From positions 11,408,001 through 11,472,000 of the forward strand of contig OX344752.2 of NCBI GenBank assembly GCA_947034885.2: a stretch of 64,000 nucleotides of DNA. Reading direction: 5' to 3'. The position numbers and the translations under genes were made by a program. Below, piece after piece: positions 5,121-64,000 of this stretch (positions are counted from its first letter, which is position 1; every line of letters begins with the position of its first letter). The notes below the pieces were generated by a model. That model was given only the letters and a program-made list of their open reading frames with translations, was not told the DNA's origin and searched no databases. Source of the stretch: Thuidium tamariscinum. Taxonomy: Eukaryota; Streptophyta; Bryopsida; Hypnales; Thuidiaceae.

Positions 5121-5466
5121 AGGCGACCACGGGTGGCGCCAGGGCGACTGTGGCTAGAGGCGACTGCGGCTTAGGGCGACCGCGTATTGGAAGGGGGCGA
5201 CCACGGGTCCAAGTAGGGCGACCTCGGGTGCGGATGGGGCGACCGCGGATGTGGGGGGGCGACCACGGGTCCTTGAAGGGCGACCGCGGCTGCGCATGGG
5301 GCGACTTCGGGTGAGCCGCGGTCGCCTAATCCTGCAGTCGCCCCTAGCGCGGTCGCCCCCACACTAAACCGCTACCCGTGGTCGCCCTACCTGCAGTCGC
5401 CCCGACCCGCGTTCGCCCTATCCGCAGTCGCCCTACCCGCGGTCGCCCTACCCGCATGCGCCCTAA
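5121..5466. repeat. GC-rich head-to-head array of about 19 short units
   Basis: Ten units close to RGGGCGACYRCGG, spaced about 15-22 bp, run forward from 5121 to about 5312. Nine units of the complement, close to CCGCGGTCGCCCTAC, follow from about 5315 to 5466. The flip makes the whole block a large imperfect foldback. It is far more GC-rich than its surroundings. It lies about 200-550 bp upstream of the ATG of the RING-H2 gene and directly downstream of the last exon of the second RING-like gene, a position that would fit a transposon subterminal region or a promoter. Confidence 0.85.
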
Positions 5467-24065: not shown

Positions 24066-26533
24066 TATGCTTGGTTTTTGTTTCATTGTTGCCAAACACT
24101 TGGTAAATAGGATGCATTGTTGAATAGAAGTATGCTTTGATTTGATGTTATACTAATATATTTTGGTCTCTATATAATTCATACTTTGTAATTGGATGGA
24201 GGCTTTGGATGTTTCTACGAACATTTCAAGTTTACAAATGCATCTAATGATGGCACATTCATTTACACCTAACTTAGTGATTTCTTTTGGTTTTGGGTCA
24301 AACACTTAGGTGGATACTACTTTGAGATTTCCATATTTGACATCGCAATTAAATTTTAAAATTAAAATTATTTTCCATTTCTTCTTTTATGGCTTTTTTC
24401 ATGTATATATAACCCCTTATATTGGGGAACATTTGAGGAAACCTCAAGTTACATATCACTTATCTTGAGCCCATCTAATATACAAATATGAGATGCGGTT
24501 TGCTATCTAGCTTTTGGAGCCCTTTCCATAATGAAAATTTTCTAATGCCAATTGCTAAAGATTTTTTATTGGTAGCACTTTGGCAATTATTTGCTAAGGA
24601 AAAAAACATTGGCCTAACTCCATACCATCCCATTCACAAGTTCGTCTACTTCATTTATTTGATTATCAATTTATTAAATACTATCAAGTAGGGATGGTAA
24701 TCAACAATATAGAGTGTAGAATTTATGGGTTTTTTTTATGTGACTATAGCATGTGTATCCGTGGTTATCTTGTTGTAGCCATCAAAGTAGTGGTTCAAGG
24801 AAAAATATTAATAAATACTGATAGTGAGTGACTCCTAGTATATTTTCTCTTAAAATTGGTATAAGTTTTGTGTAATCAAAGTAGTGTCCAGTGAAGATTG
24901 TAGAAGAGTGAGTATATGTTTCCAACTAGATTAATGTTAATGTCATCTTGTTGGTATTGAAGGTCACTTATGGAAGCTTAGTAGTCTATTAATCCAAAGG
25001 CATTTTTCAAGTCTTGGTATAATATGTAAATATTTTTAGATGTGAATTTGAAATCTATTAGTGTTGATATGAGTAATTGTATTTGTTATATATCATTCTT
25101 GTCTAAAGCCTTCTTGGTTGTCATGCCATGTTTGGTATTCCTCTCTATATTGAGCTAAAAGTGTTTGTAGTATACTTGTAAATAGTTTATTTATGGAGTT
25201 GGCTAGTATAGAAGGTTTGTAGTTATTTAGATAGTTAGCTAATTTTTTGTATAGTAGAATTATGTGGTTGACTTACTAATTTTCAAGTATTTCTTGTCAC
25301 TTATAGAAGTGTTGAAAGAAGTGGTCTTACAAATCATGGAAATGTTATGACCAATGATTTTCACTACAATATGAATATGATCTTGTATCAATGTAAAACA
25401 ACTCAATTGCATATCTACTCAAGCTAGAGAACACCTTCATCAAAATATGGTATGTGAAGGGCCTATAAAGAATAGATGAACTTGTAAACCAATGACAAAA
25501 TAAATCAAGATGTTTCTTGAGAAATTAGTTTTTGGAAAATTTGTAATATTTGAACTTAGCTAAGGTAGAAATACCATAAACTATGCCAATCCATAAATGG
25601 TTTCAATGTACTTACTCTTGTCATTTATGCATTGAAATATGAAGAGTAGGTACTTAGAAATAATTTATAGATTGACACAATTTATTTTATTCCTACCTAA
25701 CTTAGGCACTTCAAAATTGGCGTAGTAGAATATAAACTAATAGAAGGTTGAAAAGATGAGGTTCTAATTGTTTCCATACATTAGAATTACACCAAAAAAA
25801 TTGATGCACTATTTTCCTAAAAAAATCAACAACAAAAAAATGGTGTGTTGGGTGGGGTTAGTTTTGCTTGTCTTATCTTGTTAGACCACTGTTGTTGGGG
25901 GGGTTGTATTTTAACTTTTGCATTTGCAATGAAATTCTACTTCATTTTTCTTGCTGTAGTTGTGTCCTCCACTTCTATATAGAACATAGAAGGCTCAAAA
26001 AGCAAGCATCTAAGGGAAAAAATCCCTTTTTGAAGAAATCAGTCAATCTAATTTTTTCAATTATAGGAGGAGAAATGAAGAATGCTACAATGCAGATTTT
26101 AATTAGAATTTTATCACAAAGAATGAAATAAATTTGATTTTTAGAAATTGAAGGTTTGTAGGTTGCTATTAAGGATCATAGGGTACAACTGGAATGAATG
26201 AAAATATGAATTGAATAGAGTAGTCAATACAAAAAAGAAATAAATAGGATGCTAAAAATGTTCATGCAAGCTATTAATGCGTCGAATGAGTTCCCAAAAT
26301 GATGCCATCGACATTTATATCCTTTGCATTGTACAAGAGTAAGTTCTAAGTTGATTTATGTGGAGGTAGTTTAATCAATTGTACATGATTTTCTTCATGT
26401 ATGAGAGAAGGGATGCAAGTGCCTTGCAATCTTGAACCACACCTTCAAAATCCATAAATTGTACACACTTTATCAACATTCAGAATTTGCTCCATTTTCA
26501 CAACCATCTCTATTGTCTCCAGTACTCCCCTTC

Positions 26534-26801
26534 TAAGGTGGGTACACCCAAAAGTGCCTTGTTCCTAAAAGTGCCATCTATAGTTTTCGAAATCAGTCAT
26601 GTTCACAGACTGTAGATGGCGCTTTCAAAAATAGACTTTGACTGTTAATAACTTTTGCATATGGTATCCAAATCCTACGTTCTTTGATGCGTTGGAACAT
26701 GTTTTCACTTGCCAATAAGACTACATAAAAATTTGAACTAATTAATAGTAGGAATTAGGCTTAATATGAATAAGTGGTGCTTTTGGATGTACCTACCTTA
26801 A
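26534..26801. mobile_element. TA-flanked MITE family, copy A
   Basis: The terminal inverted repeats begin AGGTGGGTACACCCAAAAG and are flanked by TA. About 265 bp. Conserved interior blocks include GTTAATAACTTTTGCATA and ATCCAAATCCTACGTTCTTT. The TA target is as expected of Tc1/mariner-type MITEs. Confidence 0.85.
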
Positions 26802-26932
26802 TGGAAATTGTCCATGTGTTTCAAATGTTTTTTAGGTTTCATTTATGTAAATTAATATTTTGAAATTTTTTAATTGATCATTAATTCAAACTTAGCCGAT
26901 AGGAAGTAAGGTATGGTTTATGAATCTCCCTG

Positions 26933-27208
26933 TAAGGTGGGTACACCCAAAAGCGCCCTGTTCCTAAAAGCGCCATCTACAGTGCACATACATTTCCGAA
27001 ATCAATCATGTTCACAGACTGTAGATGGCACTTTTAGAAACAGACTTTGACTGTTAATAACTTTTGCATACAGTATCCAAATCCTACGTTCTTTGGTGTG
27101 TTGGAACATGCTTTCACTTGGCAACAAGACTACATAAAAATTTGAACTAATTAATAGCAGAACTAGGCTCAGTATGAATAAGTGGCGCTTTTAGGTGTAC
27201 CTACCTTA
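26933..27208. mobile_element. TA-flanked MITE family, copy B
   Basis: It is in the same orientation as copy A, about 130 bp away, and very similar. Its ends read AAGGTGGGTACACCCAAAAG and AGGTGTACCTACCTTA. It lies immediately upstream of the repeat block at 27240-27850. Confidence 0.85.
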
Positions 27209-27239
27209 ATTCAATGAAATCTTCACACTGACTGGCGCT

Positions 27240-27850
27240 CCTATGGAGTTAATGCAAACCCTAGCAACAGATTGCACCGTCGCGAGAAGCCGAGCTATGA
27301 CGGACTTCGCTGTTAAAAATGACCACGAATCGCTGTTCTGAGCCGAAGCTGTTCGGTGGAATTGCGACACAGTCGAAGATCTTAGGGTTCGCACATGTAC
27401 TGGAGTTTTTCAAGAGTGCAAACCCTAGCAACAAAACGCATTCTCGTGGATTGTGGATTAGACGTCGAGCTTGCGGCTATGGCAGACTTCTCCGTGGAAG
27501 AAAACGACCACGAAAGCCATGTGTTTTAAAAATGACAAGAGTAAGACAACCATGAAATTTCCACCCTACATCAGAACCCTCGCGCTGGCCCGAATATTCC
27601 TTAGAATATGCTTTAGCCAGGAGAACCGACGGCCGAGCAAGCTTTTGTCTTATCTCATGCAGTTTCATATCGGCCTACCGACGCCTTCCTTCGCAACGTG
27701 AATCTTAATGCACAATCGCCGTTCCGATACAAAGCTTGTAGCATAAAAGTCGGAGCTCTTAGGGTTCGTACATGGAAGTTCTCATTGTTCTTCTTGGCAC
27801 CAGAGGAAACTGCAGTAGCACGTAAGCTCGGCCGGATTCCTGTGACGGAC
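27240..27850 (+). repeat. Degenerate tandem repeats carrying two related micro-ORFs
   Basis: The block starting GCAAACCCTAGCAACA occurs at about 27254 and 27419. Each copy carries a short ORF: 27297-27341 (MTDFAVKNDHESLF) and 27479-27529 (MADFSVEENDHESHVF). A second shared motif, CTTAGGGTTCGYACATG, occurs at about 27381 and 27760. The micro-ORFs may be relics of first exons or small peptides; no larger frame continues from them. Confidence 0.5.
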
Positions 27851-28371
27851 GTCGGCCGTAGCTAACAAGCGGCGCCGCGCGGCGTTGACTGTCCTCTGAC
27901 CGTCGGAGCTATTTCGAGCGCGCTCGTCTTCTGGTCACTCCCTGGTGTCGTTGTTGAAGGTTGATCTTGGTGGGTTTTTTTTGTCGTTGCGGTGTTGGCT
28001 TTTAGGTTATGCTCGTAGCAGGCTTAGGTTATTTATTCTCGGGCGTGGAGTCTTGGAAAGGAAGGTTGAGGAGGGTTTTGCTTTCTTTGTGTGGTGCTGT
28101 TGATCGATTTCTGGGAGCACCCGGAGGCGATTTTGGTGGCTGGTTATTTTGAGCTGGCAGGATTGTATTTAGAAGGAACAGTGTTTTTCGTTTCAGGTTC
28201 GAAGCGAGCGTCTCGCCTGACTTGCGAGCTGCACCTGAGAAGTGTTGAGTAGGAATGCAAATTTTCGGGCGTTGTTTGGTGATTCTGTAGCGGCGGCTGT
28301 TTTTTTTTGACGGAGGGACAATGCGTTGTATTTCTGTTTGCTAGGTTGTGGCGAAAGACTGGACCTGTTGT

Positions 28372-28569
28372 ATGGCTCTTGTCGACCTTAGTTCTGAGTG
28401 AGATAAGCGGAAAAATTTCGTGGAAGTTTGTTGCACAGCGCTAGTTCGGAGGACTTTTTAATGACTTTTGTGGACCTTACTTCTATGTGAGATAGACAGG
28501 AATACATTTTGTTGTTGCATAGCCACTTTGGAGATATTTATGGCTCTTGTCGACCTGAGTTTTGAGTGA
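28372..28569 (+). promoter_or_regulatory. Three tandem 9-codon upstream ORFs in the leader of the acidic-protein gene
   Basis: Three copies of an 80-90-bp unit each contain a complete ATG-to-TGA mini-frame of the same length: 28372-28401 (MALVDLSSE), 28461-28490 (MTFVDLTSM) and 28540-28569 (MALVDLSFE). All keep ATG, the VDL core and the TGA, followed by GATA. The last one ends 49 bases before the main ATG. A fourth, unrelated mini-ORF lies at 28321-28344 (MRCISVC). Upstream ORFs commonly reduce or condition translation of the main ORF; that they do so here is inference, as transcription of the leader is not shown by sequence. Confidence 0.7.
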
Positions 28570-28618
28570 GATAGACAAATAATTCTTCTTACAAGTTTGC
28601 TGCAAAGCGCCTATCGCG

Positions 28619-29329
28619 ATGACGCCCTCCGCGAACGGGCAGAAACACGATGAGCGGCCGAGAGTGTACGTCGTGGAGCGTCGCGCGGAGTTTCGGCGTT
28701 TGAACGCGCAAATCGGTCCTAACGCCGAGGAGCAATTTTACGAGCCGGAGATTTCGTACCTGGAGGACGCTTACATCGACGAGAAGCAAGCATATGGCGT
28801 GGCTATTCTGCAGCAGATAGCCGAGCTCGATGAGCAGGTGCCCGAGAATGTCACGCACAACGGCCGCAAGGTAGCTTCGCAGTCGAGCATATCGTTGAAG
28901 GAAAGACTGAAAAGGATTCACAAGGAGGTCGACGTCGCGGCGGAAACGCACGAGGATCCTGATGCCTCTGAAAATACGCCTGTGGTGAAATACGAAGTCT
29001 TGGAGTTTCCTTTGGCCGAGCGTGTGCCGTTTCAGGAGAGCGAGTTTCTGAAGGAGCTCGACAACCCGTCCGGGTCGGACGAGGAGGAAGAGGAAGAGGG
29101 CGACGAGGACGACGGTGATGAGGAAGAAGGGGAGGAGGAAGTTGATGAAGGCGAAGAGGGTGTGGAAGAAGGAGAAGAGGAGGACGAAGAGGAAGAAGAC
29201 CCATCAGCAGGTCCTGACCATATCATTGAGCTTGACGACGACGACGACGATGAAGGCGAGGAAGTTGACGATGACGACGACGACGAAGACGAAGATGGGG
29301 CGCCGCATACCAAGAAACAAAGGACGTAG
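28619..29329 (+). CDS. Single-exon gene for a very acidic nuclear-type protein of unknown function
   Basis: The 236-residue frame is uninterrupted and GC-rich compared with its flanks. Residues 1-145 form an ordered-looking region with Tyr/Glu motifs (YEPEISYLEDAYIDEKQAYG). From about 150 to 225 the protein is almost pure Glu/Asp, in two blocks separated by a short linker containing IIELDDDD. It ends in a basic KKQRT that could serve as a nuclear signal. Acidic tails of this kind are common in histone chaperones and ribosome-assembly factors, but I recognise no family fold, so I give no function. The start at 28619 is the first in-frame ATG after the tandem upstream ORFs. The long Ser-rich frame on the other strand is a shadow of the acidic codons. 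Confidence 0.75.
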   Translation: MTPSANGQKHDERPRVYVVERRAEFRRLNAQIGPNAEEQFYEPEISYLEDAYIDEKQAYGVAILQQIAELDEQVPENVTHNGRKVASQSSISLKERLKRIHKEVDVAAETHEDPDASENTPVVKYEVLEFPLAERVPFQESEFLKELDNPSGSDEEEEEEGDEDDGDEEEGEEEVDEGEEGVEEGEEEDEEEEDPSAGPDHIIELDDDDDDEGEEVDDDDDDEDEDGAPHTKKQRT

Positions 29330-29509
29330 TGCGTCTTCTCTCGTTTCCATACGACTCGCTCTTGCGCGGAGGAACTGTCATCCCTCCGCAGCCCGTGTAG
29401 ATGCTCATTGTCTGAAGCCCCATCAGGAGCCCCAGTTCCCGAGACAGCTGCAGTGGCTAGGTGTAAATTAGAGACTGCCGGCTGTCTATGGGGCTGCACA
29501 CTGTGTGAC

Positions 29510-29830
29510 TTTGTCCATGCTTAGGCGTAGATTTTTATTTATTGTGCTTTGAAACTTGAAACATGATGATTGCTCGTTTGCACAGAAGAAGGTGATTTCA
29601 GGGTGGTGTGACATGTGTTCTTGTTGAACGGAAGCAGGCCATGAGGACCATAGTTACACTTTGGGACGATGTCCGTGCTCAGGCGTAGGTGTTTATTTAT
29701 TGTGCTTAACACTAAAAACATGTTGTTTTCTTGTTTGCTAAAAAAATTGATTTCAACTTGTGTTTTGTGTTGAACTGAAGAGGGTCATGAGAACCATTGT
29801 GCGAGTGTACGGTGGTGAAGTCTTACCACC
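29510..29830. repeat. Tandem duplication downstream of the acidic-protein gene
   Basis: A unit of about 150-160 bp is repeated. Each copy runs from TGTCCRTGCTYAGGCGTAG through TTTATTTATTGTGCTT to a RCCATGAGGACCAT-like end. The first copy starts near 29511 and the second near 29668. It probably lies in the 3' UTR or just beyond. Confidence 0.65.
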
Positions 29831-61666: not shown

Positions 61667-64000
61667 TTGGACATGCCAGATTTGCCTAGACCTGCACGAC
61701 AGAAGCGAAGAATTATCCGACTTGAACCCCGTCGCCTCATTCCACATGGAACTGAAGGCGCATGGTGTAGCGACGAGAAGCTGCGTCTGCAAAATCTGGA
61801 GGCAGAAGCTAAGCAACAGCAAGCTAAGAAGAGGATCACGGGAAAAGCGAGAAGCGGAGGGCCCCCACAGTCAGCAGTCCACGCAGCAGAGCAGTTCACT
61901 CCGACATTGGAGTCGCTGGGCCCAGCAGAGCCAGAGGGGAGGTCGCGCGGCAATGGAGCAGCCGAACTTGAAGGATGCGCCGCCGACCAGACAGGTGCAG
62001 CGGCTGCGACCGAGGAAGACCTCTTCGGCGTCGAGGTTGGCAGCCCGCCACAAGTGCCAGAGAAGGAACAATGCGGGCCCAGAGCTGCGAATGTAGGTAC
62101 GAGTCCTCCCACAGCACCGCATGCTTCTGTACCACCAATGCCTGTGAGAAAATCCAACAGACAGAAGCTAAAAAAAATGGGAACTGGACTAATGAGTAGC
62201 TAGAAAATGCCATAGCAGACTTTGATGATGGAATGCCAATTAGAAGTGCAGCTAGGGAGAATGGCATTCTTGCATCCAATTTGAGGGGACACATTTATGG
62301 GACTATATTGCATAGAAGGAGGGGTAAGGAGGGTGTCCTAACAGATGAAGAAGAGAGCAAACTAGTGAACTATTTGCTTCACATGCAAGAACTAGGTTAT
62401 CCATACAGTATTGGGCAATTGAGGGAGAAGGTTGGCATCCTCACTCAAGCCAGAGTCACTCCATTTGTAGATGGAGTACCTGGGGCTGGTTGGGTGAAAT
62501 GCTTCAAGAGAAGGCATCCAGAATTAGCAATCAGAAAAGCACAAGCACTAGATCAGAAGAGAGCCAAGCATTTGTGTCCTGAGGCAGTGGGTTCATTCTA
62601 TCACAACTTACAAATGCTATATGACCACCACAACTATGATACAAGTCCATTATGGAATTGTGATGAGAGTGGAGTACAAGCAGGGAAGGATGGAGGAGGA
62701 TACGTCATTGCTAAGAGAGGGTCCAAAAGCGTCCACAAAGTGACACCAGATCGCAGGGAGTGGATGTCAGTGCTAAGCTGTGTCAATGCCAAAGGGGAAA
62801 GGATTCCTAACTTTTACATTTTCAAGGGCAAACGGGAAAGTAGGAATTTTGTTAGCAAGACAGGTGAACTAGGCGCTGGCATGGCAATGCAGAAGAAGGC
62901 ATGGATGACTAACGCCTTATTCAGAGAGTGGATGCGGCATTTCTTACTGAAAGTGTCTGAACTATATGAAATATCTACTGAGAATCGACACCTACTGATC
63001 TTGGATGGACACAAGTCACATGTGTCTCTGGATGTTATACACATAGCTAAAACCAACGGCTTAGACTTACTGACATTCCCTTCCCATACATCTCATGCTC
63101 TACAACCTCTAGATGTGTCATGCTTCAAGCCATTCAAAAATGCTTTCAGAGCATACAGGGATAAATGGACAGGATCTCATGTAGGGAAATCGCCCATCAA
63201 AGAGGACTTGGTACAGTGGGTGTCTCTAAGTTTGAGGAAGGCTCTCAGCTCTCAGAACATTAAGATGGGATTCTCAACAACAGGAATTTATCCTCTGAAC
63301 AGCAATGCCATGGACGGGAAAATGGGACCCAGTAAGGTATATGGGAAGGAATCAGGTATACAATTTGATTCAGCAGAGGAAGGCTGTTCTACTAAGGTTC
63401 CAGACACATCGCAGCAACAACAGTGGGAAGTGGAAGAGTTGTATGGTGATATACCGGAGCATGTACCACATTGCACGCAATACTATGTGCAGCTAGACAG
63501 CGAGGAGGATCAGGTAGCCAATGAAGACTATAGTTCCGACAGTGGAAGCGACCACAGTACAACAAGGAAGCGACCGCACCTGCGACAGACGGATGACGGC
63601 AGTGACAGCGGCAGCGAAGCAGTAGGCTAGGACAATGATGCAGCTGCTGCAGCCTTTGATCAATTACTCGAGCTACCTCGCGTTCCCCTACCAAATAAAA
63701 AAAAAGCAAGAACTGAACCACTCATCGACTACACGAAATCCCTGCTACTAACGGACGAGGAGCATGTCACTCAATTGGAGGACCTAGCATGCCAACGAGA
63801 GGCAGTAGCTGCAGAAAGAGAGAGACAGAGGCAAGAGAAGGAGCAGCGGAAGGTACAGAGGCAACAGGAGAAGCAGGAAAAGGACAAGGCGAAGGTAGCA
63901 AGGCAAGCATTGGCTGAGAGCAAGAAACGACATAGAGAAGAGTGGAGTGCTAAAAATCTTCGTACTCAAGGCGATAGACTACATGCAGCTATAAGGTTGA
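61667..64000 (+). pseudogene. Pogo/Tigger-like DDE transposase gene, decayed and cut by the right edge
   Basis: A basic, low-complexity N-terminal frame (61667 to about 62170) passes into the transposase frame through a shift at an A8 run (62170-62177). The helix-turn-helix then carries a TAG at 62197-62199 where family members have Gln (WTNE-stop-LENAI). From 62233, 465 codons are open: a CENP-B-type HTH (GWVKCFKRRHPEL, about 86-98), then the DDE core with D144 (WNCDESG), D258 (LILDGHKSH) and D294 (QPLDVSCFKPF). A second TAG at 63628-63630 separates a C-terminal tail with PLIDYTKSLLLT and a coiled coil, which stays open to the window end. All catalytic Asp are present, so decay is recent. 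The element's inverted ends were not found. Confidence 0.85.

Follow-up and report, generated by a model that had tools for sequence, protein, structure and literature searches.

Three tandem copies of a nine-codon reading frame upstream of an acidic-protein ORF in Thuidium tamariscinum: a plausible translational role, with a selected peptide not indicated

Upstream ORFs (uORFs) are described in the accessible portions of PMC5469914 and PMC5972666 as prevalent repressors, with reinitiation after short uORFs (2 to ~30 codons) being possible, inefficient, and better with intercistronic distance, while most identified plant uORFs are said in the available part of PMC7503886 to work independently of their sequence. 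The CPuORFs are defined there and in a portion of PMC2075485 as similar peptides in homologous genes with constraint at the amino acid level, and NMD via uORFs is mentioned in an extract of PMC6009662. For the BRCA1 mRNAb leader, which has three uORFs, the accessible part of PMC4466658 reports that the EPA-induced rise of a reporter was lost once all three uAUGs had been mutated. The locus described here resembles the GCN4/ATF4-type leaders and the plant ARF leaders under TOR-eIF3h in that the main start is preceded by a series of short uORFs which do not overlap. Tandemly duplicated uORFs were found in none of the matches listed from the open-access uORF literature, going by titles and the starts of abstracts.

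In the 64-kb stretch of DNA analysed here (the window), three related units stand in tandem upstream of an acidic ORF, each containing an ATG, eight further codons and a TGA, and both the coordinates and the peptides given by an earlier sequence-only reading proved exact. Unit 1 (28372-28460, + strand) comprises the mini-frame at 28372-28401, which would encode MALVDLSSE and ends in TGA, and a 59-nt spacer; unit 2 (28461-28539, + strand) comprises the mini-frame at 28461-28490 (MTFVDLTSM, TGA) and a 49-nt spacer; unit 3 (28540-28618, + strand) comprises the mini-frame at 28540-28569 (MALVDLSFE, TGA) and a 49-nt spacer which runs up to the main ATG. The distances from stop to next ATG are accordingly 59, 49 and 49 nt, and the repeat unit, put at 80-90 bp in that reading, has a measured spacing of 89 and 79 nt. 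The base at −3 is T at all three repeat ATGs and G at the main ATG, with G at +4 in unit 1 and A in unit 2. The mini-frames of copies 1 and 3 indeed differ at only 2/30 bases, compared with 6/30 between copies 1 and 2 and 8/30 between copies 2 and 3, and over a 48-nt core the identity to copy 2 is 71% for copy 1 and 75% for copy 3. The similarity among the three units is well above chance, as the best 40-nt self-match within 28345-28618 (offsets 60-109) reaches 31/40, the highest value among 500 dinucleotide shuffles being 25. Unit 2 alone contains a putative minimal uORF in which the AUG is directly followed by a stop, the ATGTGA at 28485-28490, nested in frame with the longer uORF. Codon 9 of unit 2, the site of this ATGTGA, is two bases off the other copies.

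No second copy of the 301-nt region 28340-28640 was found in the 363-Mb genome (19 contigs), the DNA search, which scores only first-look candidates and skips very common words, matching this locus only. A search of the same genome with the degenerate core of 34 nt, allowing up to 3 mismatches, likewise matched this locus only, with 0 matches for the reversed control. All sequence comparisons reported here were made inside this genome, which also gives 49 matches to the chlorophyll a/b-binding family PF00504 (exon pieces counted separately), as expected of a photosynthetic eukaryote. An origin of the array from a dispersed repeat or transposon was considered and is unsupported, since both region and core match a single locus genome-wide.

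The ORF behind the array starts at 28619 and has 236 codons (28619..29329, + strand); its C-terminal part is acidic, and no family was assigned. Pfam candidates stayed below their cut-offs, with EB1_binding at 16.6 bits against 25 for the full protein and 15.8 for the first 147 residues, and DUF273 at 11.6 against 30 for the first 147 residues. Using these 147 residues as query, neither a sequence relative in the PDB nor a second match in the moss's own genome, i.e. a paralogue, was found, and a single-sequence AlphaFold model of them was unusable (mean pLDDT 45.2, pTM 0.20). The GC content at third positions is 0.71 (28619-29065) versus an overall GC content of 0.44 in 28198-28618, which is in line with coding. 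With regard to orientation, ORF length suggests that the coding strand is that of the acidic ORF, while the opposite strand is also open, with long frames, counted stop to stop, of 204 codons (28589-29203) and 162 codons (29032-29520).

Besides the array and the nested ATG at 28485, further upstream ATGs in 27780-28618 were found at 28009, 28255 and 28321, opening frames of 47, 11 and 7 codons before the array (28009-28152, 28255-28290 and 28321-28344). The frames of all seven upstream ATGs close before 28619, and the region thus has the several uORFs closing upstream of the main ATG that characterise a multi-uORF leader. The stretch 28345-28618 contains four ATGs, an ordinary number given the mean of 4.8 over 2000 shuffles; 48% of its shuffles likewise lack an overlapping uORF, so these counts give no sign of selection for uORFs.

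The spacers extend the similarity towards the main start. The sequence at 28417-28441, after copy 1, recurs with 80% identity at 28586-28610, before the main ATG, and the spacer of unit 3 is similar to that of unit 1, its similarity to that of unit 2 not being significant. The 36 nt preceding each of the four ATGs were also compared by local alignment in all six pairs, against 500 shuffles. Two of the six pairs exceeded the shuffles, both involving the segment ahead of copy 2, which was paired once with the segment ahead of the main ATG (p = 0.002) and once with that ahead of copy 3 (p = 0.004, 500 shuffles); the remaining four did not (p 0.11 to 0.71), one of them being the pair of segments ahead of copy 3 and of the main ATG (p = 0.11). 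For the 36 nt ahead of copy 1, homology to their counterparts ahead of copy 2, copy 3 and the main ATG is unsupported (p 0.71, 0.63 and 0.11), as is homology of the start of the main CDS to the mini-frames (p 0.21, 0.89 and 0.89). The array thus looks like three modules of mini-frame plus spacer of 89, 79 and 79 nt, the last of which would end at the main ATG at 28619.

The reading we tentatively favour is that local duplication of a leader module gave three non-overlapping uORFs in weak context, which would dampen translation of the main ORF regardless of the peptide. A leader module of ~80 nt, consisting of the nine-codon uORF and a spacer of ~50 nt, would have been duplicated locally in tandem, for instance by slippage or unequal exchange, leaving the main start codon behind three successive short uORFs. 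Each of these would have a weak start context, with T at −3, and would end 49-59 nt ahead of the next ATG. Scanning ribosomes may then skip some uORFs and translate others, with leaky scanning or reinitiation taking them on to the main ATG. Irrespective of the peptide sequence, the array would in this way lower the output of the main protein, which would become sensitive to the conditions of initiation. We infer that the array would be present in the mature mRNA, that its uORFs would be translated and that main output would fall. A structured RNA in the leader was not indicated, as 28198-28660 folds no better than shuffles (z = +1.04), nor do the three units (z = 0.11 to 0.73) or the segment preceding the main ATG (z = −0.05), and Rfam gave no match at the gathering threshold within the 64-kb window. 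One point that counts against the dampening array is that conservation goes on beyond the TGA, which a simple uORF role does not predict: the GATA after the TGA is invariant in the three copies, with the conservation crossing the stop as GTGAGATA.

Close behind, and nearly as likely, is a functionless local tandem duplication, in which decaying copies in a duplication-prone stretch have kept their frames by chance; this we regard as quite possible. The sequence-only reading had argued for function from the kept frame length and stop, an argument which turns out to be weak, since simulations that randomly scatter as many substitutions as are observed leave the three frames intact in 14.7% of cases (within the frame) or 6.8% (over the 48-nt core), putting frame retention at P 0.07-0.15, and the amino acid change is neutral as well. 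The surroundings also favour a functionless duplication. Scanning the window for 40-nt tandem self-matches of at least 28/40 at offsets of 45-199 yielded 12 stretches, some of low complexity, among which one is this array, one is the acidic coding run and one lies just downstream of the same gene. With the locus looking duplication-prone, the triplication itself carries less weight. The downstream stretch, at 29493-29810, is a tandem duplication with an offset of 158 nt and a best match of 34/40, situated just past the stop of the gene and probably in its 3′ UTR. Duplicated blocks with telo-box-like motifs (AAACCCTA or TAGGGTT) occur upstream as well, 27253-27276 pairing with 27417-27440 and 27371-27397 with 27748-27774. 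Elsewhere in the window, 5141-5465 contains GC-rich tandem repeats whose periods range from 15 to 62 nt, and 62200-63630 is a long open frame, which by eye we take to resemble a DDE-type transposase. Against a functionless duplication stands the concentration of conservation in the 34-nt core, which runs from the ATG through GATA and where 26/34 columns are invariant compared with 16/39 gap-free flank columns in a MAFFT alignment (Fisher p = 0.004, with the bounds of the core set after viewing the alignment), and the fact that the 5′ edge of this core is the ATG. This higher conservation of the core relative to its flanks counts in favour of the dampening array as well. Constraint acting somewhere in the core would explain the pattern, as would chance, and a peptide is not specifically favoured by it.

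Such a constraint might also act on the nucleic acid itself, if the units were recurring sites for protein binding or processing within a promoter or an intron and the mini-frame were incidental, which we consider unlikely. The conservation of GTGAGATA across the stop codon points in this direction, as do the pyrimidine tract TTCTTCTT at 29-36 nt before the main ATG and the composition, which is T-rich from 27960 to ~28600, similar to the intron-like stretch upstream, and makes a position of the array in an intron or promoter possible. Splice sites were scored with an approximate matrix, giving predictions only, and expressed as percentiles among the 3941 AGs and 3461 GTs of the window. Within the array, acceptor-like AGs at 28499 (93rd percentile) and 28522 (94th percentile) are consistent with a nucleotide-level element, and their use would leave the mRNA without units 1 and 2. 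On the other hand, GTGAG exceeds the 85th percentile of GT sites as a donor only in unit 2, the acceptor-like AGs in the spacer of unit 3 are weak (28595, 82nd percentile; 28607, 61st percentile), no TATAAA occurs on the + strand in 26500-28640, and the core starts at the ATG, all of which argue against it.

The best acceptor-like AG in 27780-28640 is predicted at 28343-28344 on the + strand (99th percentile of 3941 AGs) and would place a 27-nt exon sequence before the first mini-frame, while among the donor-like sites is 27822, at the 96th percentile of the 3461 GTs. If a leader intron ending at 28344 were used, the frames at 28009, 28255 and 28321 would drop out, and the exon of the main ATG would be left with no upstream frames other than the mini-frames and the nested ATGTGA. 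Further upstream, telo-box-like motifs lie at 27256 and 27420 (AAACCCTA) and at 27383 and 27760 (TAGGGTT), and the stretch 27256..27766 which holds them is a possible promoter region. In ribosomal protein genes, telo-boxes are reported to be close to the translation start (available part of PMC3212954); here they are 859-1363 nt upstream of the main ATG, so that the promoter may be distant and the leader may contain an intron. Splicing or the position of the promoter could take the array out of the mRNA.

Readings in which the peptide matters fare worse. The sequence-only reading had proposed a translated or translation-regulating peptide, copied to strengthen control, of which the tandem copying is real and a dampening leader plausible, whereas a selected peptide is not indicated. 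In the mini-frames 22/30 columns are invariant and eight variable; two of the eight are synonymous, both within VDL, and six alter a residue. This gives five residue changes, as against a neutral mean of 5.2 when the same substitutions are placed randomly with the frame kept (P(<=5) = 0.60; with a majority-base stand-in for the ancestor, three copies and eight variable positions, the power of this test is low). The amino-acid-level constraint of a CPuORF is thus not seen between the three copies, within the reach of three copies and eight variable positions. The VDL core is the sole hint of constraint on the peptide: it is kept in 3/3 copies, as happens in 5.8% of frame-keeping simulations (P = 0.058, for a motif chosen post hoc). 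The mini-frame pattern ATG-N6-GTNGACCT-N10-TGA, which covers only GAC and CTN codons and permits internal stops, is not enriched genome-wide, with eight matches, three of them these copies, versus five for the reversed control. Another pattern (ATG-N6 and one choice of VDL codons, no stop required) gave 125 matches versus 80 for the reversed control, an excess that was read as repeats, one sequence recurring often among the matches listed, and was not used. It is improbable, in our estimate, that the units form a ladder of uORFs, in which a module made up of the start, the V-D-L peptide, the TGA in its fixed GATA context and a ~50-nt spacer would have been copied in register with the main start, the number of modules would set the translational gain, and either the VDL peptide or the context of termination, GUGAGAUA, might add a stall at each rung. 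Least probable of all is a sequence-dependent regulatory peptide, with MxxVDLxxx stalling the ribosome and three copies strengthening the stall, which the retained VDL with its synonymous variable positions would favour, but against which stand the neutral number of residue changes, the variable C-terminal residues (SSE, TSM and SFE) and the genome-wide counts of the GAC/CTN pattern.

Taken as a dampening array, the locus has a plausible translational role, and its significance depends on whether it is part of the mRNA. If so, it would be a natural dosage series, with one uORF module present three times in register with the main start; the growth of repression with uORF number would be measurable, and tandem duplication would be shown as an evolutionary route to leader control. 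If the array is untranscribed, it would be an ordinary local duplication.

When set beside the described systems, unit 2 has with its nested ATGTGA a candidate counterpart of the AUGUAA minimal uORF of Arabidopsis NIP5;1 (available portions of PMC7503886 and PMC11915504), although in the array the start-stop is present in only one of the three units and is in frame with a longer uORF. As in the plant CPuORFs, a short uORF has residues which are kept between copies, but the copies of the array all come from one leader, and amino-acid-level constraint is not seen in them. The BRCA1 mRNAb leader similarly has three uORFs in series, which in the accessible part of PMC4466658 are not described as copies of each other, and the available portions of PMC5469914, PMC7503886 and PMC5972666 do not describe duplicated uORFs for multi-uORF leaders. 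Compared with the GCN4/ATF4-type and ARF leaders, the present locus differs in that its putative uORFs are similarly spaced tandem duplicates of each other.
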